Below, one piece after another: positions 3,001 through 25,803 of a stretch of DNA of 26,567 nucleotides. The stretch lies in IMG/VR virus record IMGVR_UViG_3300032132_000038, positions 1-26,567 of that record, one strand, 5' to 3'. Each line of letters starts with the position of its first letter. The first letter of the stretch is position 1. The notes under the pieces were generated by a model. The model did no database searches. It saw nothing but the letters and a program-made list of their open reading frames with translations, and had not been told where the DNA came from. This stretch comes from a virus. The translations under genes were made by a program, and so were the position numbers.

Positions 3001-3984
3001 ATATTTAGTGGTAGAGGTGATATTGAGAAGGCATTTGTAGGTGCAATGAAGGATTTAGAACGAGGCGTTGGTGGATTAAGTGATAAACAGAAAGAAAAAG
3101 TTTTTGGTAATGGTAGTAAGTGGATGAATTTAGAGATAATGTATCCTAAAACTGCTAATGTAATTGATTATGATGTAGCAGAGATAGTATTCCACGGAGC
3201 CATAGAATATGATGATAGTGGTAAACCAATTGGACAACCCAGAGATTCTGCTAGAATGTTAGAAGGTATGATTAGACAAATAAATGCAAATATACAGAAA
3301 CGATTTAAGATTAGTAAACCAAATTTTCTTACAGTACCAAAACATCAAGATTTTGGTAGAAAGAAAAGATCATTTTTAGGAAAGTTAACTAAATTACAAT
3401 CACATTATGCATTAAAAGATTCAGATCGATTAGGAGAATATCACGAAGCTTTTTGGAGAGAGTATGTTTTTAACGCATCTAAACAATTTGGAATTAGTTT
3501 AAAACCAAATCAGTTTGTTAGTTTGGTCAATCGTTGGGCATTTTTTGATAAATCATATAAGATAAGAGATATTAGAAAAGATTTTAAAGATGAACCTGAC
3601 TTTTTAGATTGGATAGTATCAACAGATAAAAATGATATTCAAAAGATTTTCAAAAATAATATAAAACCATTTGAAATTTTATTTTTTCAAGTTGGTGCAG
3701 AAATATTGAAAAATATAAGTGGGTTTATGGCAGCTTCACCATCAACAGCTACTCAAAAAATTAGAAAAGAAGTTATTAAAGCTTTATCTGATTTGAAAAG
3801 TGGTGGTAGTGTAGATAAGTTAAAGAAATTAAAAATACAAATAGAGAAATTACAGGCAATTGGTGGATTAGAAGCAGTTGTTCCAAGTGAGGGTGTGGTG
3901 TTTAAGTATAAAGGTAAAATGTATAAATTTACAGGAGCATTTGCACCAATTAATCAGATACTTGGTAGTTTGAAGTTCGGTTAG
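1..3984 (+). CDS. Giant fusion protein (5' end missing): Ntn-hydrolase-like, nucleotidyltransferase and ligase-like domains
   Basis: The frame is open to the left edge, so the gene starts outside the window. The first internal ATG is at 94, and residue numbers here count from it. A small basic segment (VGDTILVGRFKNKK, codons before and just after 94) precedes an Ntn-hydrolase-like domain. That domain has candidate nucleophile Cys40, GKNRDRNY at 54-61, GIGIVNSA and an RANHG motif, as in choloylglycine/linear-amide hydrolases. A nucleotidyltransferase domain follows, with GGRFQPFGPHH (535-545, HIGH-like) and VSGTSMRELLG (from 668). The C-terminal part resembles covalent nucleotidyl-transfer ligases: EKLDGQN with candidate Lys930 (motif I), WMNLEIMYP (from 1010, motif III-like), EGVVFKYKG (from 1266, motif IV) and MYKFTG (motif V). 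Domain calls rest on motifs alone. The substrate is unknown; end-healing, NAD repair or modification of host molecules are all possible. It lies just upstream of head genes. Confidence 0.75.
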   Translation, partial: EWLTNPFIKEDINIPVKVGDTILVGRFKNKKMKIKTIGKDKHGMPTINGRKATTFRIHSTVNIFDKEIDECIAVAKKFGDDIVIGKNRDRNYNPNLKVVRELSGYGVEICYVVDQDTDWAEGMNSEGIGIVNSALFVKRDEKDFDKAKKKKAMSKDGVRIREALQHKTLQKAVKSLITYQEGIKGHTIVSDGKKVVIIENTSRVKPAVTIHDIESSPVVRANHGVQHPEQGYQRGPDKLSSQLRAKNALDILSKEEDYKKFFPAFYNHTQDRGAKFDLVRAQNKLWTSSQLMMNLNKREITLYLIPGAVKFLGIENTLPNDYESKIKLKVRQYEHSPSDKYDTYVTTDKKKKKSAIKDKDTDVVSDAISSSKMYGFYKIIKGKKVVQFKGSKSAARREMKKAKRKDSRGKYQLIQTYKHDVGDIFEEFGAPAGVIPSPSRKGINKNKTDRLSGYKKVKKLDEFINKPKIKKALQKLVDKNLVPKGYIRNIRKLQTFLSRNPAVMTQLLRLLGENVKLPMEEKIKKLKKELDLYSKNVVYSISEKGDFTTNVIEEKSKIKKVVGVYGGRFQPFGPHHLKTFKWLQSKVDDAYITTSNIKSLPRHPMNFREKVRHMVKMGIPKNRIIQERTPYKAGNVLKKFDSETTAVIYIFGEKEGERLSGGQYFKDYKKNKNKMVGWRQHGYVRSAPHVSISAGGLEVSGTSMRELLGHSKYEGGGKRKKLFKKMFGYFDKGVFNMMTNKFRKLYEFYSQPEVKKLIKEVSGFSSSFKGSSLSDEGMYDFFKSFSDYKRISPRHASILGWKVVGDILSDDTEGIVDPAFDYSFAAMERTPTVTFGHTINQNTKNTDSVDNPFPKWKKHINSIVDKLGWEVIKYFGEPTVDIGDSVTIDMNRATSGAEKIKKLKEQIDITNDTKELLLMGGAYGHMSHPFDDNNLTFSDLKTIIINGLGGKLDREDNVTEKLDGQNLMISWVDGELRAARNKGHLKNHGKSAPTTSGVKSIFSGRGDIEKAFVGAMKDLERGVGGLSDKQKEKVFGNGSKWMNLEIMYPKTANVIDYDVAEIVFHGAIEYDDSGKPIGQPRDSARMLEGMIRQINANIQKRFKISKPNFLTVPKHQDFGRKKRSFLGKLTKLQSHYALKDSDRLGEYHEAFWREYVFNASKQFGISLKPNQFVSLVNRWAFFDKSYKIRDIRKDFKDEPDFLDWIVSTDKNDIQKIFKNNIKPFEILFFQVGAEILKNISGFMAASPSTATQKIRKEVIKALSDLKSGGSVDKLKKLKIQIEKLQAIGGLEAVVPSEGVVFKYKGKMYKFTGAFAPINQILGSLKFG

Positions 3985-7075: not shown

Positions 7076-8914
7076 ATGGCTGACAAAACACTATTTGGTC
7101 GATTAAAACGACTATTTTCAACAAATGTAATTGTAAGAAATGTTGGAGGACGTAAATTAAAAATTGCAGATACTGATATGCTACAACATGGGGTGAGAAG
7201 TCATCTTGTAGATAGATATTCTAAATTACATAGTGGGTTAGATTTGATAGGTACTGGATATTCTACAGTACATCAAATAATGGCCGCCAGACTTGGATTA
7301 TTCAAGGATTATGAAACAATGGATGCAGACTCTATTATATCGAGTGCACTTGACATTTATTCAGATGAATCCACAATGAAAAGCGAGTATGGAAATGTAG
7401 TAGAGATTCATAGTGATAATGATAATATCTATGAGATTCTACATAATTTATTTTATGATATATTGAATGTAGAATTCAATTTGTGGCCTTGGGTAAGAAA
7501 TATGTGTAAGTATGGAGATTTCTTTTTACATTTAGATATAAATGATAAGTATGGAATTACAAATGTGATTCCTCTATCACCATATGAAGTTATTCGTGCA
7601 GAAGGTGAAGATCCAGAGAATCCATACTATACAAAATTTTATTTAGAGACTATGGAACAAACTCATCCTTATTTACATACTATGCAAAGTCAGCATGGAA
7701 AAATAGAATTTGAGAATTTCCAAGTTGCACATTTTAGATTATTGAGTGATAGTAATTTAGTTCCGTATGGTAAATCAATGTTAGAAGGAGCACGGAAAGT
7801 CTGGAAACAAACAACATTGATGGAAGATGCTATGTTGATTCACCGTGTAATGAGAGCTCCCGAAAAGAGAGTTTTCAAAATTGATATTGGTAATATTCCA
7901 CCAAACGAAGTTGATAATTATATGCAACGAATAATCAATAAGATGAAGAAAACTCCTTTTATAGATGAGAGTACAGGTGATTATAATTTGAAATTCAATA
8001 TACAGAATTTAACGGAAGATTTTTTCTTACCAGTTCGTGGTGGAGATAGTGGAACTCAAATTGATAATCTTCCAGGTATGACATATGAAACTACTGATGA
8101 CATAGAGTATTTGAAAAATAGATTATTGGCAGCACTTCGTATTCCAAAAGCATTTCTTGGATATGAGGAATCACTTGGTAGTAAAGCAACATTAGCAGCA
8201 GAGGATGTTAGATTTGCAAGAACTATTGAGAGAATTCAAAGAATTATTGTGAGTGAATTAACAAAGATTGCAGTTGTTCATTTATATGCACAAGGATTTA
8301 CAGATGAGGAGTTGGTAAACTTTGAATTAACATTAACAAATCCATCTACAATTTATGAACAAGAAAAACTTGAATTGTGGGGAAATAAAGTTAATTTAGC
8401 TCGTGATGTAAAAGATAATCAATTACTTCCAGCTGATTGGGTATATAAAAATGTATTCAATTTTAGTGATGATGAAATAAAAGATTTAGAGAAAGAATTA
8501 GTAAAAGATCAAAAACAGAAATTTAGATTTGAACAGATTTCAGTTGAGGGTAATGATCCAGCTCAAAGTGAAGAATCAGTTGGTACTCCAAGTGATTTGG
8601 CAGCAATAGGAACAACTGGAGAAGAAGGTCAACAAGAACCACCCGATACAGCAATGGGTTCAATATTTGATCAAGGTGGGGCACCAGAAGGTGGACAACC
8701 AGGTGCAGGTAGACCTAAAGAGATGAGTAAATTTGAAAAAGATGGTAGTGCACGAGGTAGAGATCCGTTAGGTCGGAAAAAAGTTCCATTGGCACTTTCT
8801 CATTATGATGTATTGAAAAAAACTATGAAGATTTCTAAAAAACAGATACTAAAAGAAACAAATGAGTCGGATGAAATTGATAATGAATATCAAGACTTTG
8901 TAAATAAAGAATAA
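7076..8914 (+). CDS. 20: Portal vertex protein, gp20-like
   Basis: This protein would form the dodecameric ring at one capsid vertex through which DNA enters and to which the neck attaches. The 612 residues include hallmarks of T4-type portals: an early SALDIYSDEST stretch, MCKYGDFFLHLD, IPLSPYEV, and RVFKIDIGNIPP followed by a segment ending in KAFLGYEESLGSKATLAAEDVRF written in two parts (KAFLGYEESLG, then SKATLAAEDVRF). The last roughly 100 residues are low complexity (Gly, Pro, Gln) and end in a charged tail containing KKQILKET. Its location directly after terminase and before the gp21 region agrees with the role. A 75-base intergenic gap follows. Confidence 0.95.
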   Translation: MADKTLFGRLKRLFSTNVIVRNVGGRKLKIADTDMLQHGVRSHLVDRYSKLHSGLDLIGTGYSTVHQIMAARLGLFKDYETMDADSIISSALDIYSDESTMKSEYGNVVEIHSDNDNIYEILHNLFYDILNVEFNLWPWVRNMCKYGDFFLHLDINDKYGITNVIPLSPYEVIRAEGEDPENPYYTKFYLETMEQTHPYLHTMQSQHGKIEFENFQVAHFRLLSDSNLVPYGKSMLEGARKVWKQTTLMEDAMLIHRVMRAPEKRVFKIDIGNIPPNEVDNYMQRIINKMKKTPFIDESTGDYNLKFNIQNLTEDFFLPVRGGDSGTQIDNLPGMTYETTDDIEYLKNRLLAALRIPKAFLGYEESLGSKATLAAEDVRFARTIERIQRIIVSELTKIAVVHLYAQGFTDEELVNFELTLTNPSTIYEQEKLELWGNKVNLARDVKDNQLLPADWVYKNVFNFSDDEIKDLEKELVKDQKQKFRFEQISVEGNDPAQSEESVGTPSDLAAIGTTGEEGQQEPPDTAMGSIFDQGGAPEGGQPGAGRPKEMSKFEKDGSARGRDPLGRKKVPLALSHYDVLKKTMKISKKQILKETNESDEIDNEYQDFVNKE

Positions 8915-9853: not shown

Positions 9854-10250
9854 AGGTCGATTTTTAGAATTACTTCGTACTTTAATTAAAAAAGAAATCG
9901 AAGAAGCATCTACTACAGCTTCCGCGGGTGTAGACTATGGTGGAAGTGGAACTTATGATACGCCATATTGGGGTGCAGGTAAGGGCAAGGACAGAAGAAA
10001 GTCAATTGCAAGCGGAAGTGGATATCAAGAGGTATCTGAAGATACTAAAGATAAAATAAAAGCTAAAAAACTTGAAAGGGCATTGGGTACTATAGAAGGA
10101 AGATATCGTAAGGCAATGTATCAGTTGAGTGATAGATTACAGGCCGATCCTAAAAACCATAGATTACAAACTCAATTAGTAAGTTCATATACAAAACATG
10201 TAACGGCCTTTATGAGAGATATGGTTAAAATAACAAAAAGGGTGAAATAA
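9834..10250 (+). CDS. Small head protein, possible prohead core component
   Basis: A 138-residue basic protein. The N-terminus (LLRTLIKKEIEEAST) resembles the short helical leader followed by hydrophobic-x-Glu that gp21-type proteases cut in T4 core proteins; IEE|A would fit. A glycine/serine-rich linker (about 30-60, GVDYGGSGTYDTPYWG) leads to a basic helical C-terminal half. AAGGA at 9821-9825 precedes the ATG, which lies inside the end of the previous gene. The stop overlaps the protease start (TAATG). Role inferred from position, matching T4 genes 67/68. Confidence 0.8.
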   Translation: MSTKINRGRFLELLRTLIKKEIEEASTTASAGVDYGGSGTYDTPYWGAGKGKDRRKSIASGSGYQEVSEDTKDKIKAKKLERALGTIEGRYRKAMYQLSDRLQADPKNHRLQTQLVSSYTKHVTAFMRDMVKITKRVK

Positions 10251-10867
10251 TGAGACAATTAATTGTAGATTACATACCATTTGATATATCAAAACATCAA
10301 GTTACCGAGTCCATGAAAGAAAATAATGGAAAATTGGTTGTCAAAGGTGTATTACAAAGGGCAGATGCAAAAAATCAAAATGGTAGAGTGTATCCAAGAG
10401 AAATTTTAACAAGAGAAGCAAAGAATTATAATGAAAATTTTATAAAACAATCTCGAGCTATGGGAGAATTAGACCATCCAGATAGTTCAGTAGTGAATTT
10501 ACAAAATGTATCTCATAATGTTACTGAAATGCATTTTGAAGGTTTAAATTTGTTAGGTACTGTAGAGATTTTAACCACACCTGCAGGTAAGATTTTAAGA
10601 GAATTATTTAAAAATGGAATAAAACTCGGTATCAGTTCTCGTGGAATGGGTTCAGTAGAGACAGTAGAAGGTGATGATGGAAAACAACCAATGATGAAAG
10701 TTGGAAATGATTTTGAGTTGATAGCATTTGACTTTGTATCTAATCCATCTACACACGGAGCATTTATGCATCCTATAAGTGAGGGTGTAGATAGAACACA
10801 AGGTAGAAGTTGTGGTACATATTGTAAAGCAGAGGAATTAATTAATCAAATTATTCGAGGAGAATAA
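10250..10867 (+). CDS. 21: Prohead core protease, gp21-like (peptidase family S77)
   Basis: This serine protease sits in the prohead core and, after assembly, cleaves scaffold, capsid protein N-termini and internal proteins after (Leu/Ile)-x-Glu. The 205 residues carry the family motifs: ADAKNQNGRVYP (39-49), GELDHP with catalytic His76, GISSRGMGSV with Ser129/130, and IAFDFVSNPS with Asp161. ISEG at 176-179 near the C-terminus fits its own cleavage rule and may be a self-processing site. The start overlaps the previous stop (TAATG), with an AGGGTG sequence just upstream. Many candidate substrates are encoded immediately downstream. Confidence 0.95.
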   Translation: MRQLIVDYIPFDISKHQVTESMKENNGKLVVKGVLQRADAKNQNGRVYPREILTREAKNYNENFIKQSRAMGELDHPDSSVVNLQNVSHNVTEMHFEGLNLLGTVEILTTPAGKILRELFKNGIKLGISSRGMGSVETVEGDDGKQPMMKVGNDFELIAFDFVSNPSTHGAFMHPISEGVDRTQGRSCGTYCKAEELINQIIRGE

Positions 10868-10868
10868 A

Positions 10869-11048
10869 ATGGCATCGTTAGAAGATATGTATAATAGTGG
10901 TGGTGGTGGCGGAGGTGGAAGTAAATCATCCACAAACAAGACAGGTAAAACATCGAAAAAAACTGCAACCAAATATGGTGGTGGTGAAAATGGATTAGAA
11001 ACATATATAATTCCACCTATTAAAGTACGGAAAGGATTTAGATCATAA
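10869..11048 (+). CDS. Small glycine-rich basic protein (59 residues)
   Basis: A 59-codon frame starting at the ATG two bases after the gp21 stop and ending in a TAA that overlaps the next ATG (TAATG at 11046-11050). The GAGGAGAA at the end of gp21 (10857-10864) is a good ribosome site. The product begins MASLEDMYNSGGGGGGGS, then a Ser/Thr/Lys-rich stretch, and ends with IIPPIKVRKGF. It is easily missed because of its length, but perfect packing between its neighbours supports it. No family is recognised. A small internal head or DNA-binding peptide is possible. Confidence 0.78.
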   Translation: MASLEDMYNSGGGGGGGSKSSTNKTGKTSKKTATKYGGGENGLETYIIPPIKVRKGFRS

Positions 11049-11449
11049 TGATTAATTTCAGGGAACAATATAAAAGAATTGGTGGAAAACAATTAAATGA
11101 AGATAGAGAAGATGATTTTGACGGCCAAAAAGCTATGGCGAAAAAACTAAGGCGTACGAAAATTAATGGATATGGATTTGAAGTTGATAGACAAGGAAAT
11201 GATAATTGGAGTTGGTATAATAAAAAAACTAAAAAACAATTTTATGCAACACCTTGGGAAACTTTAGCTGCTACAAGTCCAGGCGGAAGTGGCCCACAGG
11301 ATATAGTCGCAATTGAAGCTTATGATGAAAAGGGTGATGAGGATAGATCAATTCCTAATAAGGCACGGTACAAACATAGTGGTAATCTCAGAAGAGATTT
11401 AGCTAATTACCTTAAAATAGTAAAAACAGTAATAAGAAAATTAAAATAA
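11048..11449 (+). CDS. Small putative internal head protein
   Basis: A 133-residue basic protein. It starts MINFREQYKRIGGKQLNED, a short amphipathic leader that ends in L-N-E|D, which fits a gp21-type cleavage site. The body (about 25-130) contains NGYGFEVDRQGNDNWSWYNKK and a basic C-terminal helix (VKTVIRKLK). Both ends overlap neighbours as TAATG, and AAGGA lies about ten bases before the ATG. I do not recognise the fold. It is the first of a series of leader-bearing small proteins downstream of the protease, so the head-cargo role is inferred from context. Confidence 0.8.
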   Translation: MINFREQYKRIGGKQLNEDREDDFDGQKAMAKKLRRTKINGYGFEVDRQGNDNWSWYNKKTKKQFYATPWETLAATSPGGSGPQDIVAIEAYDEKGDEDRSIPNKARYKHSGNLRRDLANYLKIVKTVIRKLK

Positions 11450-14400
11450 TGCCTGCCAAGTCTAAATCCCAACAAAGATTCATGGGAATGGTTCACGCGG
11501 TACAAAAAGGTGAACTTTCACCATCAGATGTTTCTGATAAAGTGAAAGATGCAGCAGATCAAATGGACGATTCAGATGCTGAAGATTATGCATCTACTAA
11601 ACATGATGGTAAGCCAGAAAAGGTAGCTAAAGAAACTTTACGAAAAATACGAGATGCGATTCGTACTGAATTAGAAAGTTGTGGATATACACATACAGTA
11701 GATGGTGATAAATTAAAATCACCTGGTGGAACTGGACCTGAAGATAGAGAACATAAAGTAGATGAAGATGTAGATGAAGGATTTGGTAGTGAAGATACTT
11801 TAGATGCAAAAGGAATAAAAGAATTTGAACAATGGAGAAAAGATAACGCAGAACAGTTAGGATATACATTATCTGGAATTTCAGATGTAAAAGAAGCTGC
11901 AAAGAGAGATTATAAAGCAGAATACAAGAAATTTCAGTCATCTGATAAAGCAAAGAAATATAGAGCTGAGTTAAATCAGTATAATAGAAAAAAAGGTACA
12001 TATGGTAATGGTGATGGTAAAGATGCATCACATAAGGGAGGCAAAATTGTGGGATTTGAAACACAATCTAAAAATCGTGGAAGAGCTGAAAAAAGTCGTT
12101 TAAAACAAGAGCGTGCATCAGTTGGTGATGTTGGTTTAGGTTTTTTAATTGATCAGTTGATAAATTCAATGGAACATTATCAAGAAGGTGGTGGTGAACG
12201 AGCTTTTGCAAAACATATGAAAAAAGAATTAGATTTAAAACCACAAGATTCTAAAAAGATTTGGAAATTATATTGGAAATTAAATCCACGAAAAAGAATG
12301 AGAATGTGGCCCCAAGAATGGGAAAAAGTATTAAAAAGAATTGGTATAACAGAATCCATAAATGAAGCAGTACCGTCCTGGTACAAAGATGGTGCGAAAC
12401 TTGTTAAAAAAGTAATGAAAAAACATAGGATAAAACCAATTTCTGGAGGTGGGAGTATGTCTTCGTGGTCAAGTATAGCTAGAAAGATACGATCTGGACA
12501 AGAGTTTGCATATTCTATTAAACCAAATTATGAATTTGTAGAATTATATCGAGGTGATTTAGACCAAAAATCAAAGAAAATTGCTATATTAGCAAAAAAA
12601 ATAGTTAAAGATATTAAAAAGGCTGGTATGGGAGCTAGTTTTGATGGTGATTTTTCGATAAATTACAATTCACAAGATATTGCAGAATCCGTATCCATAA
12701 ATGAAAGTGCAGTTTCTTTTTGGCAAGATATGTTTCGTCCAGGCCCTATTCCAAAAAAATATATAACTCAGTTGATAAAGAAAAGGGGTGAGTTACCATC
12801 TAAAAAACACATCAAAGCAATTTATAGAAGTAATGGTAATCCAAGTTCAAGAGAATTAGCAAAATCTTGGAAACTATTAACAAAAGAAAAATATGTAAGA
12901 GCAGCAAGTGGAATGTGGAGATGGAATAAAGATTTTACTGGTTGGGAATCTGTAAATGAAACATGGTCAACTGGTTTAGAGAGATATAAAGTTACCTTAG
13001 AAAATGGTGAAGAAATAGATGTTAAAGTTAAAGAAGGTAAAGGTTTAGAAGGTTTAGAAGAATTATTAGGAAAAGAAGGTTTAAAATTTGAAAAAATTAC
13101 AAAAAAAGCATCTCGTCCTACTTTAACTGCAGAGTTCGTAAATGAATCTACAAAGAGACAATATCGTGATGTATATAGTAAGTATTATAAAACATACGAA
13201 GCTTTTGCAAGAGAAGTTATGAAGTTAGCCAAAAGTGTTACTAAGATAAGTGGTGATAGGACAGATGGAAGAATTATTTTAAAGAATTTTAAAAAACAAG
13301 TTATTCCATTTGCAGGCCTAATGAATAGTTGGTCAAAAGGACGTGAGAGTAATCCACATATAGATGAATCCGTAAATGAAGCAATTCCATCAGAGATTCC
13401 GAGAACAAAAATTCGTTTATTGAAAATGAATGCTAAATATTTAGCTGATGACCTTATGGATATGTACAAAGAACTCAATCAAAGAGACGTTGATTCAGAA
13501 TTAGTTGTACAACATTTAGATTATTTAAAAGATAAAGTAAAAATGATGAGAAAAAATGTGGGTTTACGAGAATCCGTAAATGAAGAAATTACACTACTTA
13601 CCGAAGGATATACTAATTATTGGAAACATACAGGAGATTTTACTCCACAAGAGTGGACTAAGATTGTTAGACTTGCAAAAACTGCAATTAAAAGAGCCAA
13701 ACGAGGTGGAATTGTAATACGAGATGGTTGGGGAAAAGGTAAACCTAAGATAGATAATAAACAAATATATCTAAATGGTGATGGAGAAAATGATTTAGAC
13801 CATGAAACTTTTTTACTTACTAAGAAAGCACAAAGAAATTCGGGATTTACTAAAACTAATAGAAAACCATATGATGCGGTAGTAGCAACAATTTTAGTTG
13901 GAATACAAAAGATAGCACCTGAGAAATTTAATGCACGAGCAGATGGTAAATTAAAAATCGGTGGAGTAAATAATTGGAAAAATGAATCCATAAATGAAGC
14001 TAGTATGAGTAGAGAAGCTAACAAAATAGTTAAAATATTTGCTCGTGATTATGATAAACTTGTTAAGAAAGAATTACCAAGCTCGGTAGAAAGAAATGAA
14101 ATATTTCAAGAACTTAGATATCTGATGAGTAAAATAGAGAATAAATATAAGAAATTGATTCGTCCACGTGAATCCGTAACTGAAGGTAGACGGGCAGTTC
14201 AAGCTTATAAGGAAATGGGTTCATCATTAACTACTGCTATTTATGGAATTAAAAATTTTAGAAAAATACTGGATGACGGCCCTTTTAATAAAAAATTCGG
14301 AATGGTTTCAGGACACTTATATAAATTTGAAATAGAGTTAGAGAAAAAATTACGATTATTACTTCCACAAATAAAAAAGATTTCTACAAATAAAATGTTA

Positions 14401-15396
14401 GAATCCGTAAAAGAAAGTGGTATTATGTATCGTGCTGGTGTAAAAAAATATGGTAAAGAAGGAATGAGGAAAATACAACAAGCCGCAGGTAAAAGAAAAT
14501 CACATGCAGAAATAGGTGCAATTAAAGACAAATATGAGAAAGATAAAAAAGAATCAGTAGATGAAGATATTGGTATAGATGTTTATTTAGGCGGTATTGT
14601 TAAGTCAATGAGAAAAGCAGGATTAAAACCTAAAACAGCCAAACAAATGAAACGTGGATTTAGTAAAAGTAGAGATAAGGTTGGATTTTTTATTGATGTA
14701 GAGCAAAGAGGTTTTGATAGAAAAGAAAAGTATACTTTACAACTTGAAGTTGATAAAAAGGGTGATTTATGGTATCTATCAGCACCGAAAGATATAAAAT
14801 TAGGAAAATGGGCAGATACCAATAAAATAGCTCGTGGATTTAAAGCATTGAATAAGATAAGAGGATTTGGTCAGAAAACACTTCAGAAAAAAGAATCCGT
14901 AAATGAAGGATTTAATAAATACCGTTTAGGTGGTTTACTTGATAGTAGATTGAAGAAAAGATTAGAGCGTACTATTAAAATTATAGGTGGTAAAGTAGAT
15001 GGAGTAGGAGATGATTATATTAAATTTAGAATTAGTTCTATGGATTTACAAAAATTACCTGCAGTTATTACAAAATTAGATCGAAATAAGAATGTATGGA
15101 TTGGTAATAAACGTAATAAAAATATTTGGGATAGAAAAAGACGTATAGATAAGTTAGAATTTGTAAATAAAAGATGTACTGTAAAAGAAGTATCTAAATG
15201 GTTAAAAACACTTGAAGAATTTAGATATAGAAAAGTTCGTCCCGTTGATGCACGACGAGTTGCTTCATTTGTGAATAGAGGAATGAATGAAGAAGATTTA
15301 CCAATAAGTTTACAAAAGAAATGGGAACATAGAAAATACGGTAGAGAGAAACATTTAGCTGTAAAATATTTAGAAATAATTACGAAAGAAAACTAA
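11449..15396 (+). CDS. 1315-residue putative head polyprotein with repeated gp21-type cleavage motifs
   Basis: The N-terminus MPAKSKSQQRFMGMVHA matches a short stand-alone phage family (DUF3008-like). The rest is a string of unrelated-looking basic segments separated by E-S-V/I-N-E-like motifs. Putative cuts fall after Glu306, 419, 504, 566, 644, 712, 850, 912, 989, 1039 and 1153, mostly followed by Ala, Ser, Thr or Gly. They would release pieces of about 113, 85, 62, 78, 68, 138, 62, 77, 50, 114 and 162 residues. Extra candidates are VDE|G at 108-111 and LTE|G at 717-720. These fit the hydrophobic-x-Glu rule of the T4 prohead protease, whose homologue is encoded just upstream. One segment contains the motif FTKTNRKPYDAVV. 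The gene is TAATG-linked at both ends. Polyprotein processing is inferred, not shown. Confidence 0.85.
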   Translation: MPAKSKSQQRFMGMVHAVQKGELSPSDVSDKVKDAADQMDDSDAEDYASTKHDGKPEKVAKETLRKIRDAIRTELESCGYTHTVDGDKLKSPGGTGPEDREHKVDEDVDEGFGSEDTLDAKGIKEFEQWRKDNAEQLGYTLSGISDVKEAAKRDYKAEYKKFQSSDKAKKYRAELNQYNRKKGTYGNGDGKDASHKGGKIVGFETQSKNRGRAEKSRLKQERASVGDVGLGFLIDQLINSMEHYQEGGGERAFAKHMKKELDLKPQDSKKIWKLYWKLNPRKRMRMWPQEWEKVLKRIGITESINEAVPSWYKDGAKLVKKVMKKHRIKPISGGGSMSSWSSIARKIRSGQEFAYSIKPNYEFVELYRGDLDQKSKKIAILAKKIVKDIKKAGMGASFDGDFSINYNSQDIAESVSINESAVSFWQDMFRPGPIPKKYITQLIKKRGELPSKKHIKAIYRSNGNPSSRELAKSWKLLTKEKYVRAASGMWRWNKDFTGWESVNETWSTGLERYKVTLENGEEIDVKVKEGKGLEGLEELLGKEGLKFEKITKKASRPTLTAEFVNESTKRQYRDVYSKYYKTYEAFAREVMKLAKSVTKISGDRTDGRIILKNFKKQVIPFAGLMNSWSKGRESNPHIDESVNEAIPSEIPRTKIRLLKMNAKYLADDLMDMYKELNQRDVDSELVVQHLDYLKDKVKMMRKNVGLRESVNEEITLLTEGYTNYWKHTGDFTPQEWTKIVRLAKTAIKRAKRGGIVIRDGWGKGKPKIDNKQIYLNGDGENDLDHETFLLTKKAQRNSGFTKTNRKPYDAVVATILVGIQKIAPEKFNARADGKLKIGGVNNWKNESINEASMSREANKIVKIFARDYDKLVKKELPSSVERNEIFQELRYLMSKIENKYKKLIRPRESVTEGRRAVQAYKEMGSSLTTAIYGIKNFRKILDDGPFNKKFGMVSGHLYKFEIELEKKLRLLLPQIKKISTNKMLESVKESGIMYRAGVKKYGKEGMRKIQQAAGKRKSHAEIGAIKDKYEKDKKESVDEDIGIDVYLGGIVKSMRKAGLKPKTAKQMKRGFSKSRDKVGFFIDVEQRGFDRKEKYTLQLEVDKKGDLWYLSAPKDIKLGKWADTNKIARGFKALNKIRGFGQKTLQKKESVNEGFNKYRLGGLLDSRLKKRLERTIKIIGGKVDGVGDDYIKFRISSMDLQKLPAVITKLDRNKNVWIGNKRNKNIWDRKRRIDKLEFVNKRCTVKEVSKWLKTLEEFRYRKVRPVDARRVASFVNRGMNEEDLPISLQKKWEHRKYGREKHLAVKYLEIITKEN
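12352..14907 (+). repeat. Eleven dispersed 15-base repeats encoding E-S-V-N-E-like linkers
   Basis: The consensus is GAATCCGTAAATGAA. First bases are at 12352, 12685, 12946, 13132, 13366, 13570, 13984, 14170, 14401, 14551 and 14893, all in the same reading frame. The copy at 12685 carries two extra codons (ESVSINE), 13132 encodes EFVNE, 14170 ESVTE, 14401 ESVKE and 14551 ESVDE. Eight of the ten serine codons are TCC, which is uncommon in the rest of this AT-rich gene. The spacing is 50-140 codons, so this is not a tandem repeat or a CRISPR array. Confidence 0.85.
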
Positions 15397-15722
15397 TGAT
15401 TAAGTTAATGGATTTATTAGAAGCAACCTCACCAGTTAAAATAGGAAGTGCTCTTCCTGGATCTGGTGGTAGACGGAAAGAAATAGAGATAGTTGTAGAT
15501 AAATCTATGGGTAAGTGGAAAATTGTTTATTTTAATATGGTAAGAAAATATGTTAGTGGAGTTGGACATTCACCTGATAGAATGATTAATTATGATGATA
15601 TATTTAAACTTTCTTCATCAGAAAAAAGAACCATACAAAAAATTATAAAGAATCCAGAAGATATAGCTTATATGGATGATGGAAATGTGAAACCCAAAGA
15701 AGTACTGAGAGCTTTAAAATGA
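15396..15722 (+). CDS. Small putative internal head protein with targeting-type leader
   Basis: A 108-residue basic protein beginning MIKLMDLLEATSP, a leader shared in outline with the next genes. L-L-E|A would be a prohead-protease-type cut after residue 9. The body (GGRRKEIEIVVDKSMGKW, then a helical part) looks like a small alpha/beta domain that I cannot assign. The start overlaps the polyprotein stop (TAATG), and the TGA overlaps the next ATG (ATGA). No clear Shine-Dalgarno is present, so coupling is likely. Confidence 0.8.
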   Translation: MIKLMDLLEATSPVKIGSALPGSGGRRKEIEIVVDKSMGKWKIVYFNMVRKYVSGVGHSPDRMINYDDIFKLSSSEKRTIQKIIKNPEDIAYMDDGNVKPKEVLRALK

Positions 15723-16123
15723 TTAAGTTAAAAGACCTTATAATTGAAGATATTTGTTGTGAGAATTGTGGCCACGGAGAACCTTGTTGTTCTATAAATG
15801 AGAGTATTAAGTTAGATACTAATCTTGGTGGAACTATCCAAATGGGTAAAATTTTTACTGGTCATGGAAAATCATTTGTAAAAGAAGAAGATTTAAATGA
15901 AGCAAAAGAAATAAAAAAATCAGATGTGGTTAGATTAGTAAAAATGGCAAAAAAAATTGATAAGGATTTAAATACACTTACTAAATTTTATAAAAAGAAA
16001 ATTTATAATGTGAATAATAATGTAGTATATAAAACTTGGTTATCTTTAGATAATGCAAGACGAGAATACTCTATAAAGGCTATGAGTGGTATTGAATTTT
16101 TACAAGATGAAGGTTGGGAATAA
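15719..16123 (+). CDS. Small putative internal head protein with cysteine cluster
   Basis: A 134-residue protein starting MIKLKDLIIEDICCENCGHG. The leader ends in I-I-E|D. Six cysteines lie within the first 25 residues in an arrangement (CCENCGHGEPCC) that could bind a metal. Two more protease-type motifs follow, SINE|S at about residues 26-30 and LNE|A at about 59-62. The C-terminal half is lysine-rich and helical. It overlaps the preceding stop as ATGA. If processed at all sites, the cysteine piece would be released from the basic domain. Function unknown. Confidence 0.8.
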   Translation: MIKLKDLIIEDICCENCGHGEPCCSINESIKLDTNLGGTIQMGKIFTGHGKSFVKEEDLNEAKEIKKSDVVRLVKMAKKIDKDLNTLTKFYKKKIYNVNNNVVYKTWLSLDNARREYSIKAMSGIEFLQDEGWE

Positions 16124-16534: not shown

Positions 16535-16553
16535 TAGTAATAGGAGAATAATA

Positions 16554-17210
16554 ATGGCAAAATTAAAAGATTTAATAAAAGAAAACTTTTCACTTGTGGG
16601 TGGTTTGATTTCCGTACCAGCAATAAATCGTGGTAGTGGTGGAATAGGCCTCTCCGATATTGTAGAAGATATTTATGGTACTCAAGAGAAAGTTTCTGCT
16701 AAAGAAATAAAAGAAGCAATGAGTTCATTTTCTAAGATGGGTAATTTACTTCATAGAGAAGAAAACCTAAAAGAAATTGCAAGTAATCTTTCTGAAATTG
16801 CTACTAAAGCAAAAACATATACATTAAGTGAAACTGATGATTGGTTTGATAAAGTTACTGTAAATCGTAATATGAAGGAACTTACAACATTATCAAAATC
16901 TTTTGGTAAATTCGCTCAAGAAGCACAAGGTTTACAAGAAAGAATGAGTGCATTGTATGAAGATATGGGACATATTGTAGGTCGTTATTATGAAATGGAT
17001 GCTGAAGATCATGAACCTGGTCACGATGAAACTCATGATGATGAAACTTATGAAGGTAATTCAATTGAAGAAGGTGATTATGAAGAATTTTTTAAGAAAG
17101 CACTGGCAAAGTTTGGTGTAAGTTCTCCAGATGAATTAGATGATGAGAAGAAAAAAGACCTTTTTAATTATGTAGATAAAAATTATAAAGCAGAAAAAGA
17201 AACAGACTAA
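16554..17210 (+). CDS. Putative internal head protein with targeting-type leader
   Basis: A 218-residue protein starting MAKLKDLIKENFSLVGG. I chose the ATG at 16554 because AGGAG (16542-16546) precedes it and it restores the leader shared with neighbouring genes; a longer frame from 16503 would overlap the previous gene. I-K-E|N at 8-11 fits a protease cut. The middle is helical (about 45-150) and the C-terminal third is acidic with a His/Asp/Glu run (about 143-165). The TAA overlaps the next ATG (TAATG). Family not recognised. Confidence 0.82.
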   Translation: MAKLKDLIKENFSLVGGLISVPAINRGSGGIGLSDIVEDIYGTQEKVSAKEIKEAMSSFSKMGNLLHREENLKEIASNLSEIATKAKTYTLSETDDWFDKVTVNRNMKELTTLSKSFGKFAQEAQGLQERMSALYEDMGHIVGRYYEMDAEDHEPGHDETHDDETYEGNSIEEGDYEEFFKKALAKFGVSSPDELDDEKKKDLFNYVDKNYKAEKETD

Positions 17211-17509
17211 TGATTAAACTAAAAAAATTAATAAACGAAAGAAAATTTGGTGAACCATTACCTACTTTAAAAAGTGAGATGGAAAAACATCAATCGAAAA
17301 ACGTAGTAACGGAAGATGTAGAAACTGCTGTTAGTATGTTAATGAAAAGGTGGAATGGTGTTGTAAAATATTGGAAGGGTAATGATGATATCTGGAAAGA
17401 TAATAAAAAAGTACCAAAAATTATAGTGAAATATAAAAGGCAGTGGGAAAAAATCATTAACAGAATGGATAGAGAAGTTAGAAAAGAAGTTGGAAAAAAG
17501 TATAGATAA
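17210..17509 (+). CDS. Small putative internal head protein with targeting-type leader
   Basis: A 99-residue, strongly basic protein starting MIKLKKLINERKFGEP. The leader ends in I-N-E|R. The rest is helical and Lys/Trp-rich (RWNGVVKYWKGNDDIWK and a basic C-terminal helix ending VGKKYR), in keeping with binding to nucleic acid inside a capsid. The start overlaps the previous stop as TAATG without a Shine-Dalgarno. bS21 follows after 22 bases. Function is inferred from leader and position. Confidence 0.8.
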   Translation: MIKLKKLINERKFGEPLPTLKSEMEKHQSKNVVTEDVETAVSMLMKRWNGVVKYWKGNDDIWKDNKKVPKIIVKYKRQWEKIINRMDREVRKEVGKKYR

Positions 17510-17855: not shown

Positions 17856-17879
17856 TTGAAATCCTATTGGAGAAATAAA

Positions 17880-19085
17880 ATGGATGACTTATTGAAAGAA
17901 GCCATCGCAGACGCAAAAGCAGTTCGTGAAACAGCCTTAGCTAATGCTAAAATGGCACTTGAAGAAGCATTTACTCCACGTTTAAAATCAATGTTGGCAA
18001 AGAAGATTCAACACGAAATCGAAGAAGAAGATGATGAAGTTTCTGATGAAGAAGCTCCTGAATTTTCAGCTGAAGATGATGAAGTTCCTGTAGAAGAACC
18101 CGCTCCTGAAATATCTGATGAAGATGATGAAGTATCAGATGAAGATGAAGACGTTCCTGCAGAAGTAATCGAAATCGATGGTGTAATGTATGCACCTGTA
18201 GTTTCTGAAGAAGATGAAGAAGAAGTCGAAGAAGATGCTCCCCTCGAAGATGAGGATGAAGATGTTCTTGACGTTTCTGAAGAAGAAGAAACTGATGAAG
18301 ATGACGATTCAGTTGATGAACTCGATCTTGAAGCTATTCTTCGTGAATTAGAAGATGAAGATGATGAAGAAGAAGTATCTGAAGAATATGAAGATGAAGG
18401 TACTGAAGACGGTCACGAAAAAGTGGCTGAGGTAGAAGATTCTTCTGATATCGGCGATGCCGATAACAAAGAACCTTCAACTGATAGTTCAGATTCGTCT
18501 AAAGTTGGACAGGGTCCTGAATCAGAAGGTTCTGATAAACCAGAAGGTTCTGAGAATTCTGAAGATACTAAAGTTGAATCAACTCCTGATGCAGGTACAT
18601 CTGTAGAAGATGACGAACCAGCAAAAGAAGCTGAAGTTGATACTGAAGACATTGACCTTGAAGAAGTGTTGAAAGCACTTTCTGAGGAAGATGAAGAAGA
18701 AGCTGACGTGGAAGAGATAGCTATACTTCAAAAAGAAGTAAAAGAGCATAGAGATGTTGTGAAATATCTACGTGCTAAACTTAACGAAGTTAATTTATTG
18801 AACGCAAAACTATTGTTCACTAACAAATTATTCCGTGCGTACGGTTTAAGTAACGAACAGAAAATGAAAGTTGTTGAAACTTTTGATAGAACTAAGAATC
18901 TTAGGGAAATTAAACTTGTTTTCTCAACACTTGCAGAATCTTTTGGTCAGATAAAATCTGGACCGATTAAAGAATCTAAAGGTTCATCTTCTAAAGCCGT
19001 TGCTTCAACTAAACCTATTAAAGAAGTAATTTCTGAAGGTGATGATGTTAGAGCTAGGTTCAAGAAATTAGCAAACATAATTTAA
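17880..19085 (+). CDS. 22: Prohead scaffold (core) protein, gp22-like
   Basis: This would be the major component of the assembly core that the gp21 protease degrades before DNA packaging. I start it at the ATG at 17880 (MDDLLKEAIADAKAV), preceded by GGAG with seven-base spacing. The N-terminal helix (1-45) is followed by a very acidic, low-complexity region (about 45-285) dominated by Glu, Asp, Val and Ser, then a coiled coil (about 280-340) and a C-terminal VISEGDD-VRARFKKLANII tail. The tail, size (401 residues against about 270 in T4) and place before the capsid gene support gp22. The acidic insert makes it longer than T4's. VISE|G near the C-terminus fits a protease cut. Confidence 0.88.
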   Translation: MDDLLKEAIADAKAVRETALANAKMALEEAFTPRLKSMLAKKIQHEIEEEDDEVSDEEAPEFSAEDDEVPVEEPAPEISDEDDEVSDEDEDVPAEVIEIDGVMYAPVVSEEDEEEVEEDAPLEDEDEDVLDVSEEEETDEDDDSVDELDLEAILRELEDEDDEEEVSEEYEDEGTEDGHEKVAEVEDSSDIGDADNKEPSTDSSDSSKVGQGPESEGSDKPEGSENSEDTKVESTPDAGTSVEDDEPAKEAEVDTEDIDLEEVLKALSEEDEEEADVEEIAILQKEVKEHRDVVKYLRAKLNEVNLLNAKLLFTNKLFRAYGLSNEQKMKVVETFDRTKNLREIKLVFSTLAESFGQIKSGPIKESKGSSSKAVASTKPIKEVISEGDDVRARFKKLANII

Positions 19086-19110: not shown

Positions 19111-20766
19111 ATGAGTAAACAAACTTCAACAATTGAAAAGTTGATGGATGGATATAATCCTCAACGTCAGTTGTTAGAACAAACCCGTAAGTTAGTTAAG
19201 AAATGGGAGCCAACAGGCCTTTTAGAAGGTATGGAAGCTGAACATCAAGTTAATGGTATGGCAGTTCTTTTAGAGAACCAAGCACGTCAGTTAATTGATG
19301 AAGCGTCCAGAACTGGTGGCCAAAATGCTGAAGAATGGAGTGGCGTAGCCCTTCCATTAGTTCGTAGGATTTTTGGTGAATTAGCAGCACAGGAATTCGT
19401 TTCTGTTCAGCCTATGAACCTTCCTTCAGGACTGATCTTCTATCTTGACTTCAAATACGGTACAGCCCAAACAGGAGCACACACAGAAAATGCAGATGTA
19501 TATGGTAATACATCAGGTTCAAATACCGATGCAACTGGTGGTCTTTATGGTGCTGGTAAATTTGGATATTCTATCAACGATACCGCTTCTGATGCATTAA
19601 CTATTGGAGCTGCAGTTGCAAATGATGCATTTACAACTGCTTCAGTTGCTTGGGTTGATGTTGATTTTGAACCTGACCTTTCAAGCTCAGTATCTACTGG
19701 ATACATGGCAGATAATGGTCTTGTTAAAATTACTGTTGATGGAACAAATGACTTACCGACTCACGATCCTGATGGTGTAAGAGCTTTCTCTATTAGTGGT
19801 TCTGGAATAGATGCCTATTATCCAGCATACACTACAAGAAGTGCTTCAAGTACAGATGTATCTTTCATCTGCTTGAAATCACAAGCTGCTGTACCAACAG
19901 GTATTGTTGTGAGATATCACAAAGTTGCTACTACAGATTATTCCCGTACAGATTTTGAAGCTACGACAGCTCAAATTGATCTAAACCCTGAAACCGATAT
20001 TGACATTCCTGAATTAGATATCGCGTTAAAGAGTATTCCGATCATCGCGAAAACTCGTAAGTTGAAAGCTGTATGGACACCTGAGTTGGCACAAGACCTT
20101 AACGCTTATCATAGTGTTGATGCAGAAGCTGAATTGACAGCTCTGTTAAGTGAATACATTTCAATGGAAATCGATTTAGAAATCCTTGATATGTTATTTG
20201 CTGGCGCATCCGCTAAGAAAGAGAATTGGTCAGCACGTGTTGGATATGAATATAATTCGGCAACTTCGTTGTTCGAAGAATCTTCAGGTAGTTCCAATGC
20301 ATATACAAAAGGTGCATGGTTCCAGACTCTTGGAAACAAAATACAAGCAGTATCTAATGCAATTCATCAGAAAACTCTACGTGGTGGTGCTAATTTCATG
20401 GTGGTTTCACCTGAAACAGCAACAATCATAGAGAGTATTCCTGGATACGCAGCTGATACAGCTGGTGAAGGTACTGAGAAGTCCTTTGCTATGGGTGTAC
20501 AAAAAGTTGGACAGTTAAATAACAGATATACGGTTTACAAAAACCCATATATGTTAGAGAATAAAATCCTTATCGGTTTCCGTGGAAGTAACTTCCTCGA
20601 AACAGGTGCGGTTTATGCTCCGTATGTTCCTTTGATAATGACACCTCTTGTTTACGATCCTAAGAACTTTACTCCACGTAAAGGTGTGATGACACGTTAC
20701 GCGAAGAAAATGGTTCGTCCAGAATTTTATGGACAGGTCATCGTAGCAGATGTAAACTATGTCTAA
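19111..20766 (+). CDS. 23: Major capsid protein, gp23-like
   Basis: The HK97-fold capsid subunit, 551 residues. Recognisable T4-type features are EWSGVALPLVRRIFGELAA followed by QPMNLPSGLIFYLDFKYG (about 75-120), and the conserved C-terminal MTPLVYDPKNFTPRKGVMTR and GQVIVADVNYV. The N-terminal about 64 residues look like a removable arm: LIDE|A at 61-65 fits the gp21 rule and coincides with the known position of cleavage in T4 gp23 (after residue 65). GGGAG at about 19099-19103 is the ribosome site. A strong terminator follows. No separate vertex protein gp24 was seen in the window. Confidence 0.96.
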   Translation: MSKQTSTIEKLMDGYNPQRQLLEQTRKLVKKWEPTGLLEGMEAEHQVNGMAVLLENQARQLIDEASRTGGQNAEEWSGVALPLVRRIFGELAAQEFVSVQPMNLPSGLIFYLDFKYGTAQTGAHTENADVYGNTSGSNTDATGGLYGAGKFGYSINDTASDALTIGAAVANDAFTTASVAWVDVDFEPDLSSSVSTGYMADNGLVKITVDGTNDLPTHDPDGVRAFSISGSGIDAYYPAYTTRSASSTDVSFICLKSQAAVPTGIVVRYHKVATTDYSRTDFEATTAQIDLNPETDIDIPELDIALKSIPIIAKTRKLKAVWTPELAQDLNAYHSVDAEAELTALLSEYISMEIDLEILDMLFAGASAKKENWSARVGYEYNSATSLFEESSGSSNAYTKGAWFQTLGNKIQAVSNAIHQKTLRGGANFMVVSPETATIIESIPGYAADTAGEGTEKSFAMGVQKVGQLNNRYTVYKNPYMLENKILIGFRGSNFLETGAVYAPYVPLIMTPLVYDPKNFTPRKGVMTRYAKKMVRPEFYGQVIVADVNYV

Positions 20767-22055: not shown

Positions 22056-22544
22056 ATGGCAAGTAGATTTTGGCCAACAAGAGATACGGATTTAGCAAAA
22101 CGATTTAATGACGAACTTGTAGGTAATTTGTATCAAAGTGAAGATGGCATTATAGGACAAAATGTAATCATATATAGGGTTGCAGTTTATGATACTAAAA
22201 CCAATATGTATGGTGAAGCAGGAGAAACTGGTAAAGTATATAAGGCAGGAGTAAAATTATCCTGTATTATAGAGGCAGGTGATTTCGATTGGAATACCGA
22301 TGAATTCGGGCCAGATACAAGACAAGACGTTAGTTTTCATTTCCAAAGAGATATGTTGATTCAGGTTAATTTTAGACCTGATATTGGTGATATTATAAGT
22401 TGGAATAGTGGATATTTTGAAGTTAATGGAACTAATGAGAATCAATTAGTGGGTGGACAAACAGATAAAAATTGGACTATTAGTTGTACAGCACACTTAT
22501 CGAGAATTAATTCACTTAATATTGAAAGAACAAGGGCATTTTAA
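22056..22544 (+). CDS. 14: Neck protein, probably gp14-like
   Basis: A 162-residue protein starting MASRFWPTRDTDLAKRFND. RPDIGDIISWNSGYFEVNG (about 107-125) and the following QLVGGQTDKNWTISC resemble the GD-I-(Y/W)-x-x-x-x-x-F-E-(I/V) and x-x-x-GQ region of T4 gp14. The N-terminal segment with early Phe and Asn residues is also compatible. It is much shorter than T4 gp14 (256 residues), so the assignment leans on its place between gp13 and a gp15-like gene. The stop overlaps the next ATG (TAATG). Confidence 0.65.
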   Translation: MASRFWPTRDTDLAKRFNDELVGNLYQSEDGIIGQNVIIYRVAVYDTKTNMYGEAGETGKVYKAGVKLSCIIEAGDFDWNTDEFGPDTRQDVSFHFQRDMLIQVNFRPDIGDIISWNSGYFEVNGTNENQLVGGQTDKNWTISCTAHLSRINSLNIERTRAF

Positions 22545-24232
22545 TGGCAAGAACTAAACCATTATCACGTAGAGCAAGACGAGATTTAAATTCCATAGCA
22601 TTACGAGAAGATTTTAATAGAGCCAGAGAATACCGTAGAGATAAAGATGAACAAAAAAATATCTCTGTTTCTCTTATGGACATGGATAGTGCCATAATGT
22701 ACTATTTTAATGAAGTTATAAAACCATCTGTAAAAGAAAATAAAGAAACTGTACAAGTACCCGTAATGTATGCATCACCAGAACGGTGGGTTAGTATACA
22801 GAAACAAGGGTTTATGAGAGATAAGAGACAACAACTTATCGTACCTGCAATAGTATTTAAAAGAACAAGTATTGAGAAAAATGAAAATATACCAGTTGAT
22901 AAATTAGATGCCAATAACCCAAAACACACTATGACATTTCAACAAAAATATTCTCAAAGTAATCGTTATGATCAATTTTCAAGAGTTGTTGGGGTTACAC
23001 CCAATAAAGAATATTATAATGTAGTTGTACCCGATTATGTTATATTAAACTATGAATTTACAATTTGGACTTCATACATTGAACAAATGAATAAATTAGT
23101 AGAGAAGATTAATTATACTGATGGTGCTTATTGGGGTGAACCTGGTAAGATGAGATTTAGAACTAAAATAGAGAGTTTTACAGATGCAAGTGAAATGGAT
23201 GCACAAGAAAGATTGATTAAAACTACTTTTGGAGTTCAAATGTTAGGTTATATTATACCTGAAGAATTCAATAGTATGATAACTACTCAAAAACAACTCA
23301 CACCCAAAAAACTTGTTTTCAATATGGATGTAGAGAAAACTCGGAAAGATTTAGTTGATGTTCCAGCTCCTGGTCAAACTGTCGGTATAGAGGCACCAAA
23401 AGATGTTTTTTCTATATCGGTAGGTTTTCCATTTACTATGAATGCAGGAACTGGAGTTAGTTTATCAAGTGATGGTGTTGGGTTTGATGGTAGTTCTCCA
23501 GTAACTCAAACGGTATCAATAGGACAGCCAGTTGCAACCACAGACGATGTAACTTTTTCACAGGTATCTGCAAGTTCTCTTGTATTTGGTAATCCAACTA
23601 CTTTTACATATCAAGGAATTAGTGGTAGTATAGCTATAACTGGTTCATTAACAACAAGTGGAGATTTAACCGTACAAGGTGATGCTACCGTGGCAGGTAC
23701 TTTGACTGCAAAAGAAATCCATACTCAGTTTGTTTCGGCGTCTATTTTATTCCAAAGTGGTAGTACAAAACTTGGTGATACTATAGATGATACTCATGAA
23801 TATACTGGAAGTTTAAGTACAAGTGGTTCATTTATATTAAATGGATATACTATTGATGAAATATCAAATGACTCTACTTTAGGGGATGAAAGTACAACTG
23901 CAGTACCTACAGAATATGCAGTAAAAGCTTATGCAGATACTCTTACTACAGACCAAGCATATTTGAGAAAATCGTATTATAAAACATCGGCTTCTGTACT
24001 TAGTACAACTACTGCTAGTTTTACGGCTGTTACGGCATCTGCACCAACAGGAGTGACCGAAACAACCGAACATGATTTTATATTTTTCATAAATGGACAA
24101 TATATGGAACATGACGCAATTGCAATTGAACAAAGTGGTTCAAGTTTATTATTAAAAGTAGATAATGATTCTATAGGATATGCCTTAGAGAGTGATGATG
24201 AAATCATAGGTATAGGTAAATTTAATTCATAG
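22544..24232 (+). CDS. 15: gp15-like tail completion protein with fibre-like C-terminal extension
   Basis: The N-terminal about 260 residues follow T4 gp15, the protein that caps the tail tube and sheath and joins tail to head. Matching points are VQVPVMYASPERWVSI, LIVPAIVFKRTSI, LNYEFTIWTSYIEQMNKL, and a terminal block with MDAQERLIKTTFGVQML then GYIIPEEF. From about residue 290 a second part begins, rich in Gly, Ser and Thr with beta-repeat character (GSLTTSGDLTVQGDATVAGT, ESTTAVPTEYAV, ASAPTGVTETTEHDF). That part is typical of marine phage fibres and adhesins, and residues about 325-562 are paralogous to residues about 37-278 of the next gene. T4 gp15 is only about 270 residues, so the extension is unusual. 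The TAATG start overlap suggests coupling. Confidence 0.75.
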   Translation: MARTKPLSRRARRDLNSIALREDFNRAREYRRDKDEQKNISVSLMDMDSAIMYYFNEVIKPSVKENKETVQVPVMYASPERWVSIQKQGFMRDKRQQLIVPAIVFKRTSIEKNENIPVDKLDANNPKHTMTFQQKYSQSNRYDQFSRVVGVTPNKEYYNVVVPDYVILNYEFTIWTSYIEQMNKLVEKINYTDGAYWGEPGKMRFRTKIESFTDASEMDAQERLIKTTFGVQMLGYIIPEEFNSMITTQKQLTPKKLVFNMDVEKTRKDLVDVPAPGQTVGIEAPKDVFSISVGFPFTMNAGTGVSLSSDGVGFDGSSPVTQTVSIGQPVATTDDVTFSQVSASSLVFGNPTTFTYQGISGSIAITGSLTTSGDLTVQGDATVAGTLTAKEIHTQFVSASILFQSGSTKLGDTIDDTHEYTGSLSTSGSFILNGYTIDEISNDSTLGDESTTAVPTEYAVKAYADTLTTDQAYLRKSYYKTSASVLSTTTASFTAVTASAPTGVTETTEHDFIFFINGQYMEHDAIAIEQSGSSLLLKVDNDSIGYALESDDEIIGIGKFNS

Positions 24233-25076
24233 GGAAATATAATGCCGTTATTTAAATTTAGAAATCCATTCAGAGTTTCGGGTTCAACGGGATTTTTAGT
24301 TTCTAATACAGACGTAATAGATGGTTTAACTAAACAATCTGTTGCTCTTAGTATTGGACAGTCAGTAGCTACAACGGATGATGTAGTTTTTAATGATATT
24401 AACCAACCCACAAGCGTAACAATAGGAACACCTGCTCAAAATATAGTTTTATCTTATGCTTCCATTTCAGGATCAATAACTCAAACTTATGGTGATAGTT
24501 TTGTTGTAAGAGATAATTTATCTGCCTTATCCGATATGACTGTTACTGGTAATATTACTGCTCGAAAAATTGAGGGGGAACGAACTGGTTCACAAACATT
24601 ACACGATAGTGGTTCATCTAAGTTTGGAGATGACGTAAATGATACTCATGAAGTAACTGGTAGTATTTTTATAAGTGGTTCTTATGAATTGAATAGTTAT
24701 TCTGTGAATGAAATTTCAGCCGACACAACTGGAGCAGATGAAAGTACCACAGCATTAATAGTAGAGGGTGCATCAAAACAATTTTTTTCTGGAGTAACAA
24801 GTCAAAATGATTTTATAAGACAAAAATTTGCTCATAAGGGTAGTATTCTGAGTGGGGCAACAGCTAGTTTTTCTGCAGCGACAGCTTCAGCTCCAACTGG
24901 ACTTGAAGATACGACTAAAGATGATTTTACATTTTTTAATAATGGAATGGTAATAGAATATGATGCTCTTACGGTAGAACAAAGTGGTTCAAAATTTTTA
25001 TTGAAGGTAAATCCAAATTCATTGGGATATGGTTTAAGTAGTAATGATGAAATTGTAGCATGGGGAAAATTTGACA
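23516..25076 (+). repeat. Paralogous fibre-like block present in two adjacent genes
   Basis: Two regions of about 240 codons, 23516-24229 and 24350-25076, encode proteins with the same order of motifs: S-I-G-Q-x-V-A-T-T-D-D-V, G-S-S/T-K-x-G-D-x-x-x-D-T-H-E, DESTTA, ASAPTG, FI/T-FF-x-N-G, E-Q-S-G-S and I/V-G-K-F. Similarity is clear at protein level and patchy at DNA level, which suggests an old duplication. Confidence 0.75.
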
Positions 25077-25738: not shown

Positions 25739-25790
25739 TTATATAAAAAAAATTTATTTATTTACTTCCACTTTTCTTTTACCATTCTTT

Positions 25791-25800: not shown

Positions 25801-25803
25801 AGT

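Follow-up and report, generated by a model that had tools for sequence, protein, structure and literature searches.

A putative modular head polyprotein downstream of the gp21 protease gene in a T4-like virus fragment

The internal head proteins IPI-III and Alt of phage T4 are small basic proteins that vary quickly as cargo and keep a conserved leader, the capsid targeting sequence. Each of them is supplied by one gene with one leader, which the S77-type prohead protease gp21 removes after L/I-x-E (PMC9026906). The T4 core proteins gp22, gp67 and gp68 adjoin gp21, carry several gp21 sites per chain, are degraded by the protease to peptides (PMC9958956) and end up expelled. Several cuts by a gp21-related protease are also described for head proteins of phiKZ and SPN3US, where propeptides are processed at A-X-E or S/A-X-E; these extra cuts take off propeptides, and a string of separate products is not described (PMC10052503; PMC9026906). 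The polyvalent proteins of Iyer et al. (2017) are multidomain chains thought to enter the host with the DNA, and processing by their own protease domains has been proposed for some of them (PMC5512222). A phage head polyprotein that is cut into many interchangeable products was not found among the open-licence papers searched.

Here we analyse such a candidate, the reading frame P0001, in a virus fragment of 26,567 nucleotides (IMG/VR record IMGVR_UViG_3300032132_000038, positions 1 to 26,567), which is called the window throughout. Like the T4 internal proteins, its predicted pieces are small and basic, belong to a T4-like phage with an S77 protease and follow sites of the x-E type, but here around twelve modules are strung together in a single ORF behind one N-terminus, with internal sites between them. 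As with gp22, gp67 and gp68, the gene adjoins gp21 and encodes several sites per chain, whereas the segments between the sites are conserved and exchanged modules. The several cuts proposed for it recall phiKZ and SPN3US, with the difference that they would yield separate products. Unlike the polyvalent proteins with their large recognised enzymatic domains, P0001 is built from small modules without assigned function, lacks several recognised enzymatic or effector domains in one chain, and its likely protease is the separate gp21.

The reading frame P0001 and its head-gene surroundings

The window carries a T4-like head cluster with terminase, gp20, gp21 and gp23, and the interval between gp20 and gp23 holds P0001, an acidic scaffold-like ORF and small leader-bearing ORFs (arrows mark candidate cuts):

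7076..8914, + strand: gp20 portal protein (Pfam Portal_T4, 2e-79)
10250..10867, + strand: gp21-type prohead protease (matches to Peptidase_S77 and PDB 5jbl)
11048..11449, + strand: small ORF with leader QLNE↓D
11449..15396, + strand: putative modular polyprotein P0001, 1315 aa (based on motif count and dN/dS)
15396..15722, + strand: small ORF with T4-like leader MIKLMDLLE↓A
15719..16123, + strand: small ORF with leader MIKLKDLIIE↓D
16551..17210, + strand: ORF with leader MAKLKDLIKE↓N, conserved in relatives
17210..17509, + strand: small ORF with leader MIKLKKLINE↓R
17877..19085, + strand: acidic, putative gp22-like scaffold (inferred from position, and from composition; no family match)
19111..20766, + strand: gp23 major capsid protein (Pfam Gp23, 2e-77) with candidate site GLLE↓G

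A sequence-only reading of this DNA had placed a gp21 homologue 580 bases upstream of P0001. The gap measures 581 bases, and the family assignment is confirmed by Pfam Peptidase_S77 (2e-24, 86.5 bits against a cut-off of 27), by phrog_207 (2e-51) and by the T4 enzyme in PDB 5jbl (2e-10). In the alignment to 5jbl the Ser (GxxSRGxGS) and Asp motifs of the catalytic regions match, and His76 stands opposite an Ala of the 5jbl chain, which we take to be an inactivated mutant. Elsewhere, the gp21 gene of a giant phage (LR756508; L094 3-1202) appears to be split just after the catalytic-His region by an insert that by its sequence is intein-like or LAGLIDADG-like.

Several other ORFs of the window deserve a brief description. 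The 1296-aa ORF at 94-3984, located 5' of the terminase gene, combines weak cytidylyltransferase/NMNAT (aa 533-617) and RNA-ligase (aa 927-960) matches in one chain; NMNAT-like proteins occur in cyanophage virions, and the cytidyltransferase of S-SM2 begins MKSFFQFLSE↓A. The ORFs at 22544-24232 and 24242-25738 have a repeated C-terminal stretch in common (ATASAPTG...DFTFFNNG...), the former with a weak gp15-like part and the latter with an end that appears LamG-like by eye. The ORF at 25789-26094, likewise judged by eye, begins like a zinc ribbon, contains a NUMOD3-like segment and is perhaps part of a homing endonuclease.

The sequence-only reading had described P0001 as a basic 1315-residue protein with eleven E-S-(V/I)-x-E sites, mostly followed by Ala, Ser, Thr or Gly, that divide it into pieces of 50-162 residues. 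The eleven sites hold as nine strict motifs and two variants, ESVSINE and EFVNE:

12352..12366, + strand: linker 1, ESINE↓A, aa 302, strict
12685..12705, + strand: linker 2, ESVSINE↓S, aa 413-419, variant; L002 and L007 also have this linker in front of this module
12946..12960, + strand: linker 3, ESVNE↓T, aa 500, strict
13132..13146, + strand: linker 4, EFVNE↓S, aa 562-566, variant; homology to other loci begins at aa 559-566
13366..13380, + strand: linker 5, ESVNE↓A, aa 640, strict
13570..13584, + strand: linker 6, ESVNE↓E, aa 708, strict
13984..13998, + strand: linker 7, ESINE↓A, aa 846, strict
14170..14184, + strand: linker 8, ESVTE↓G, aa 908, strict
14401..14415, + strand: linker 9, ESVKE↓S, aa 985, strict
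14551..14565, + strand: linker 10, ESVDE↓D, aa 1035, strict
14893..14907, + strand: linker 11, ESVNE↓G, aa 1149, strict

In 2000 residue-shuffled versions of P0001 the strict motif occurred 0.06 times on average and at most twice, against nine times in the protein itself, while the remaining proteins of the window (6950 aa summed) contain a single copy. P1' is A, S, T or G at 9/11 linkers, as had been stated. The stated sizes and basic character hold for the pieces beyond the first site (50-162 aa, pI 8.2-10.3) if the variant EFVNE, at which a cut would divide the 140-aa piece, is left uncut; the first piece measures 306 aa. All eleven internal sites present (V/I)-x-E at module borders, as would a gp21-type site before a mature piece, with a P3 that is mostly Val, unlike the L/I-x-E of the published T4 rule (PMC9026906). 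Certain module borders come without a clean site, namely RLKKE↓N after module B1 and EFVNK at aa 1237.

The first piece is composite and consists of a DUF3008 domain, a phrog_6437 module and a helical part:

11455..11625, + strand: DUF3008 domain, aa 3-59 (Pfam PF11450, 8e-8, 32.8 bits against a cut-off of 24)
11890..12135, + strand: module B1, aa 148-229 (phrog_6437 match at 151-217; preceded by DVKE↓A)

Module B1 is common to many loci. A short N-terminal leader ending in (L/I)-x-E, such as MIKLKxLIxE, is absent from P0001, which opens with DUF3008; this counts against its proposed entry into the prohead as cargo, for which the DUF3008 N-terminus is a possible entry or targeting domain. DUF3008 was the only Pfam family above cut-off in P0001, NCBIfam and PADLOC returned no match, and none of the modules could be given a function from PHROGs, Pfam, NCBIfam or PADLOC. 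As MAFFT put short module homologues wrongly on the long P0001, two regions were modelled alone. AlphaFold gave mean pLDDT values of 52 and 55, too weak for a proper test of domain boundaries, and within these overall weak models the module at aa ~506-556 reached a pLDDT of about 75 between two low-confidence linkers.

Module exchange among related loci

Searching with gp21 yielded 80 related loci, and the 47 that extend 1.5 kb or more downstream were usable. In 29 of these 47, gp21 is directly followed by an ORF that carries at least two motifs, a DUF3008-type N-terminus opens the ORF after gp21 in 38, and 44 non-redundant ORFs carrying at least three motifs were collected in total. When DNA was scanned for exact matches to the 15-mer GAATCCGTAAATGAA, without gp21 seeding, 37 loci with at least two copies were found; the surrounding sequence analysed contained head genes in 31/37 and gp21 in 22/37. 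An ESVNE polyprotein is absent from the nearest cultured phages by gp21 and gp23, Microcystis phage Mel-JY01 and Flavobacterium phage immuto, though one of the recurring modules is present in distant form behind TAVNE in Mel-JY01, and a protein search of 50,697 phage records returned single modules only. Two loci (L217 and L218) with a closely related gp21 (79-80%) and comparable modular ORFs come from NAT55, a marine Flavobacteriales MAG, which weakly hints that Flavobacteriales may host phages of the P0001 type.

Cutting the 44 ORFs at the motif gave 227 modules with an internal median of 71 aa, and 123 of them fall into 35 families. For almost every family the left and right neighbours differ between proteins, as exemplified by family F00 with 13 distinct left neighbours among 14 copies. 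The nearest relative of the window, L002, is 90% identical in its best segment and possesses many of the window's modules in changed order, the module at aa 645-708 sitting in a separate ORF there. The ends of homology also cluster at linkers: in an all-against-all comparison of the polyproteins 342 of 1310 ends lay there versus 173 ± 16 with shifted sites, a pile-up to which the masking of linkers with X may add. This comparison replaced a first junction test on strict sites of the window protein, which had placed 22 of 68 ends near sites (p 0.001-0.008), a modest result, since motifs of other kinds stand at several of the borders. Comparison of the window with L002 gave dN/dS values of 0.17-0.64 across every shared module compared, indicative of purifying selection. 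The check proposed in the sequence-only reading, a search of related phages for these linkers combined with a changing order of domains, was clearly positive. An assembly error or chance ORF fusion was considered and rejected, given the presence of the arrangement on many independent contigs and dN/dS below 1 in the shared modules compared.

Borders, leaders and the ancestry of the linker

Modules of these families are also found in other ORFs, where they follow unrelated sequence. Among 105 distinct cases without upstream ESVxE, Glu occupies P1 in 77% and V/I/L/M/F occupies P3 in 69%; about half of the cases belong to the GRYHDYRND module family, whose members stand behind a wide variety of unrelated sequences, almost all of them with V/L/I/F-x-E↓G or K-E↓G at the end. 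Some modules directly follow short leaders such as MIKLKDIMKE↓, MKITKTQLKQMIREEIQSLKE↓ or MLGE↓, and the body of the window ORF at 11048..11449 recurs in L002 behind another leader, MIKLKKLIME↓D. As the borders keep (V/L/I)-x-E behind unrelated sequence, the conserved feature is the type of motif that gp21 is known to cut. The leaders of the small window ORFs resemble those of T4, which gp21 removes after L/I-x-E (PMC9026906). With regard to its position, the GRYHDYRND module (about 79 aa) is located just 5' of gp21 in nearly all loci (e.g. L089 2987, L082 2570, L069 8279), behind sequence that is unrelated in almost every phage, and recalls T4 gene 67/68.

The protease itself carries comparable motifs. 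Candidate self-sites of the window gp21 are ESMKE↓N (aa 20-24) and PISE↓G (aa 175-178), and the family presents E-(S/A)-(M/I/L)-K-E↓N at the N-terminus in 50/52 and P-(L/M/V/I)-x-E↓(G/S/N) at the C-terminus in 73/77 sequences; in T4 gp21 the corresponding N-terminal position holds LIE-9, which is thought to be self-cleaved (PMC9958956; PMC9026906). We infer from this likeness that the linker may be a substrate-like copy of gp21's own terminal sites. Both the interchange of leaders and linkers and the similar motifs at the gp21 termini strengthen the assignment of the linker as a gp21 site, and we consider it likely that gp21 cuts linkers of the P0001 type.

The linkers furthermore share a history at the DNA level. 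In the gp21-seeded loci, 46% of the linker serines (46/101) are encoded by TCC and none (0/101) by AGY, compared to 8% and 30%, respectively, for other serines of the same ORFs. We preferred this figure over an alternative one of 62% TCC, which is inflated as the DNA scan is itself based on TCC. This bias speaks for common descent of the linkers, which would fit, as expected, with their being copied together with modules. Linkers of one origin that mark the module boundaries would allow modules to be exchanged without breaking reading frame or processing.

Proposed processing and fate of the modules

The mechanism put forward in the sequence-only reading, processing of P0001 by the prohead protease into about a dozen internal head peptides, is supported as the best explanation of P0001. 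P0001 would join the T4-like prohead scaffold core as a single chain, perhaps via its DUF3008 N-terminus, and upon shell closure gp21 would cut behind the Glu of every E-S-(V/I)-x-E linker, setting free around twelve modules that are small and for the most part basic. A part of them, or the whole set, would stay with the DNA in the head as internal proteins and might enter the host by ejection, while phages would exchange, add or reorder modules at the linkers with reading frame and processing intact. Cleavage, targeting, retention and ejection are predictions of this model, and we regard this whole chain, with P0001 as a gp21-cut cargo or core polyprotein whose pieces are in part or entirely kept in the head, as rather probable. 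More tentatively, and with somewhat less than even confidence, the linker may serve as protease site and frame-preserving exchange point at once, making P0001 a swappable cassette of ejected effectors that draws on a shared module pool and is processed only in the prohead.

Cultured T4-like cyanophages offer a parallel. Mass spectrometry identified 45 virion proteins in S-SCSM1 (PMC9602691), and annotation as a virion protein is given there to the DUF3008 ORF, to the preceding modular 520-aa ORF92 and to an NMNAT. The modular equivalents S-SM2 gp186 and Bellamy 171 contain repeated (M/V/I/L)-x-E motifs, and modular proteins adjoining the DUF3008 ORF are located at L214 936-2498, L215 7592-9001 and L216 7397-9001. 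These proteins resemble P0001 in their modularity, DUF3008 association and repeated motifs, but they lack a regular ESVNE linker and do not adjoin gp21, and homology to the P0001 family is confined to the adjoining DUF3008 ORF.

Being cut would not by itself turn the pieces into cargo, since T4 gp22, gp67 and gp68 are cut up and expelled. P0001 might likewise be a modular prohead-core protein that gp21 fragments so that the pieces can leave, as its location between gp21 and scaffold/gp23 and the degradation of the T4 core proteins would suggest. We consider this unlikely, because the majority of modules resemble separate domains kept by purifying selection and are basic where the scaffold is acidic, their diversity and exchange fit effectors better than a scaffold, and relatives of DUF3008 and the adjoining modular protein are annotated as cyanophage virion proteins.

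Two further readings dispense with the cut. If P0001 stayed intact like beads on a string, its linkers would be flexible spacers or recombination seeds with an incidental likeness to gp21 sites; the serine codon bias fits such a spread by duplication or recombination, and multidomain injected phage proteins are known (PMC5512222). What makes this quite improbable is that a border behind unrelated sequence keeps (V/L/I)-x-E rather than the ESVNE DNA, that gp21's own termini bear the same motif type, and that the polyprotein is linked to head genes. The motif could also recur as a signal for docking to the scaffold or the shell, in line with a short motif recurring in a head protein and with the targeting of T4 internal proteins by a 10-residue leader (PMC9026906), but it stands at module ends without fixed spacing and is replaced at the same border by other (V/L/I)-x-E sequences, so we give docking hardly any weight.

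Returning to P0001 as a processed polyprotein, the finding, if true, would bring the viral-polyprotein strategy to tailed phages, with many interchangeable products cut inside the prohead, next to the known routes of phage cargo processing by one leader per gene in T4 and by propeptide removal in phiKZ-like phages. The cut at (V/L/I)-x-E would then be a simple rule to find hundreds of unannotated head-packaged proteins of marine T4-like phages, and it may also account for the modular virion proteins of cultured cyanophages. Some of these proteins may be anti-restriction or host-takeover factors, roles that by comparison with T4 IPI are reasonable guesses for the modules. Related marine T4-like phages thus seem able to swap sets of capsid-packaged proteins bead-like along one gene.
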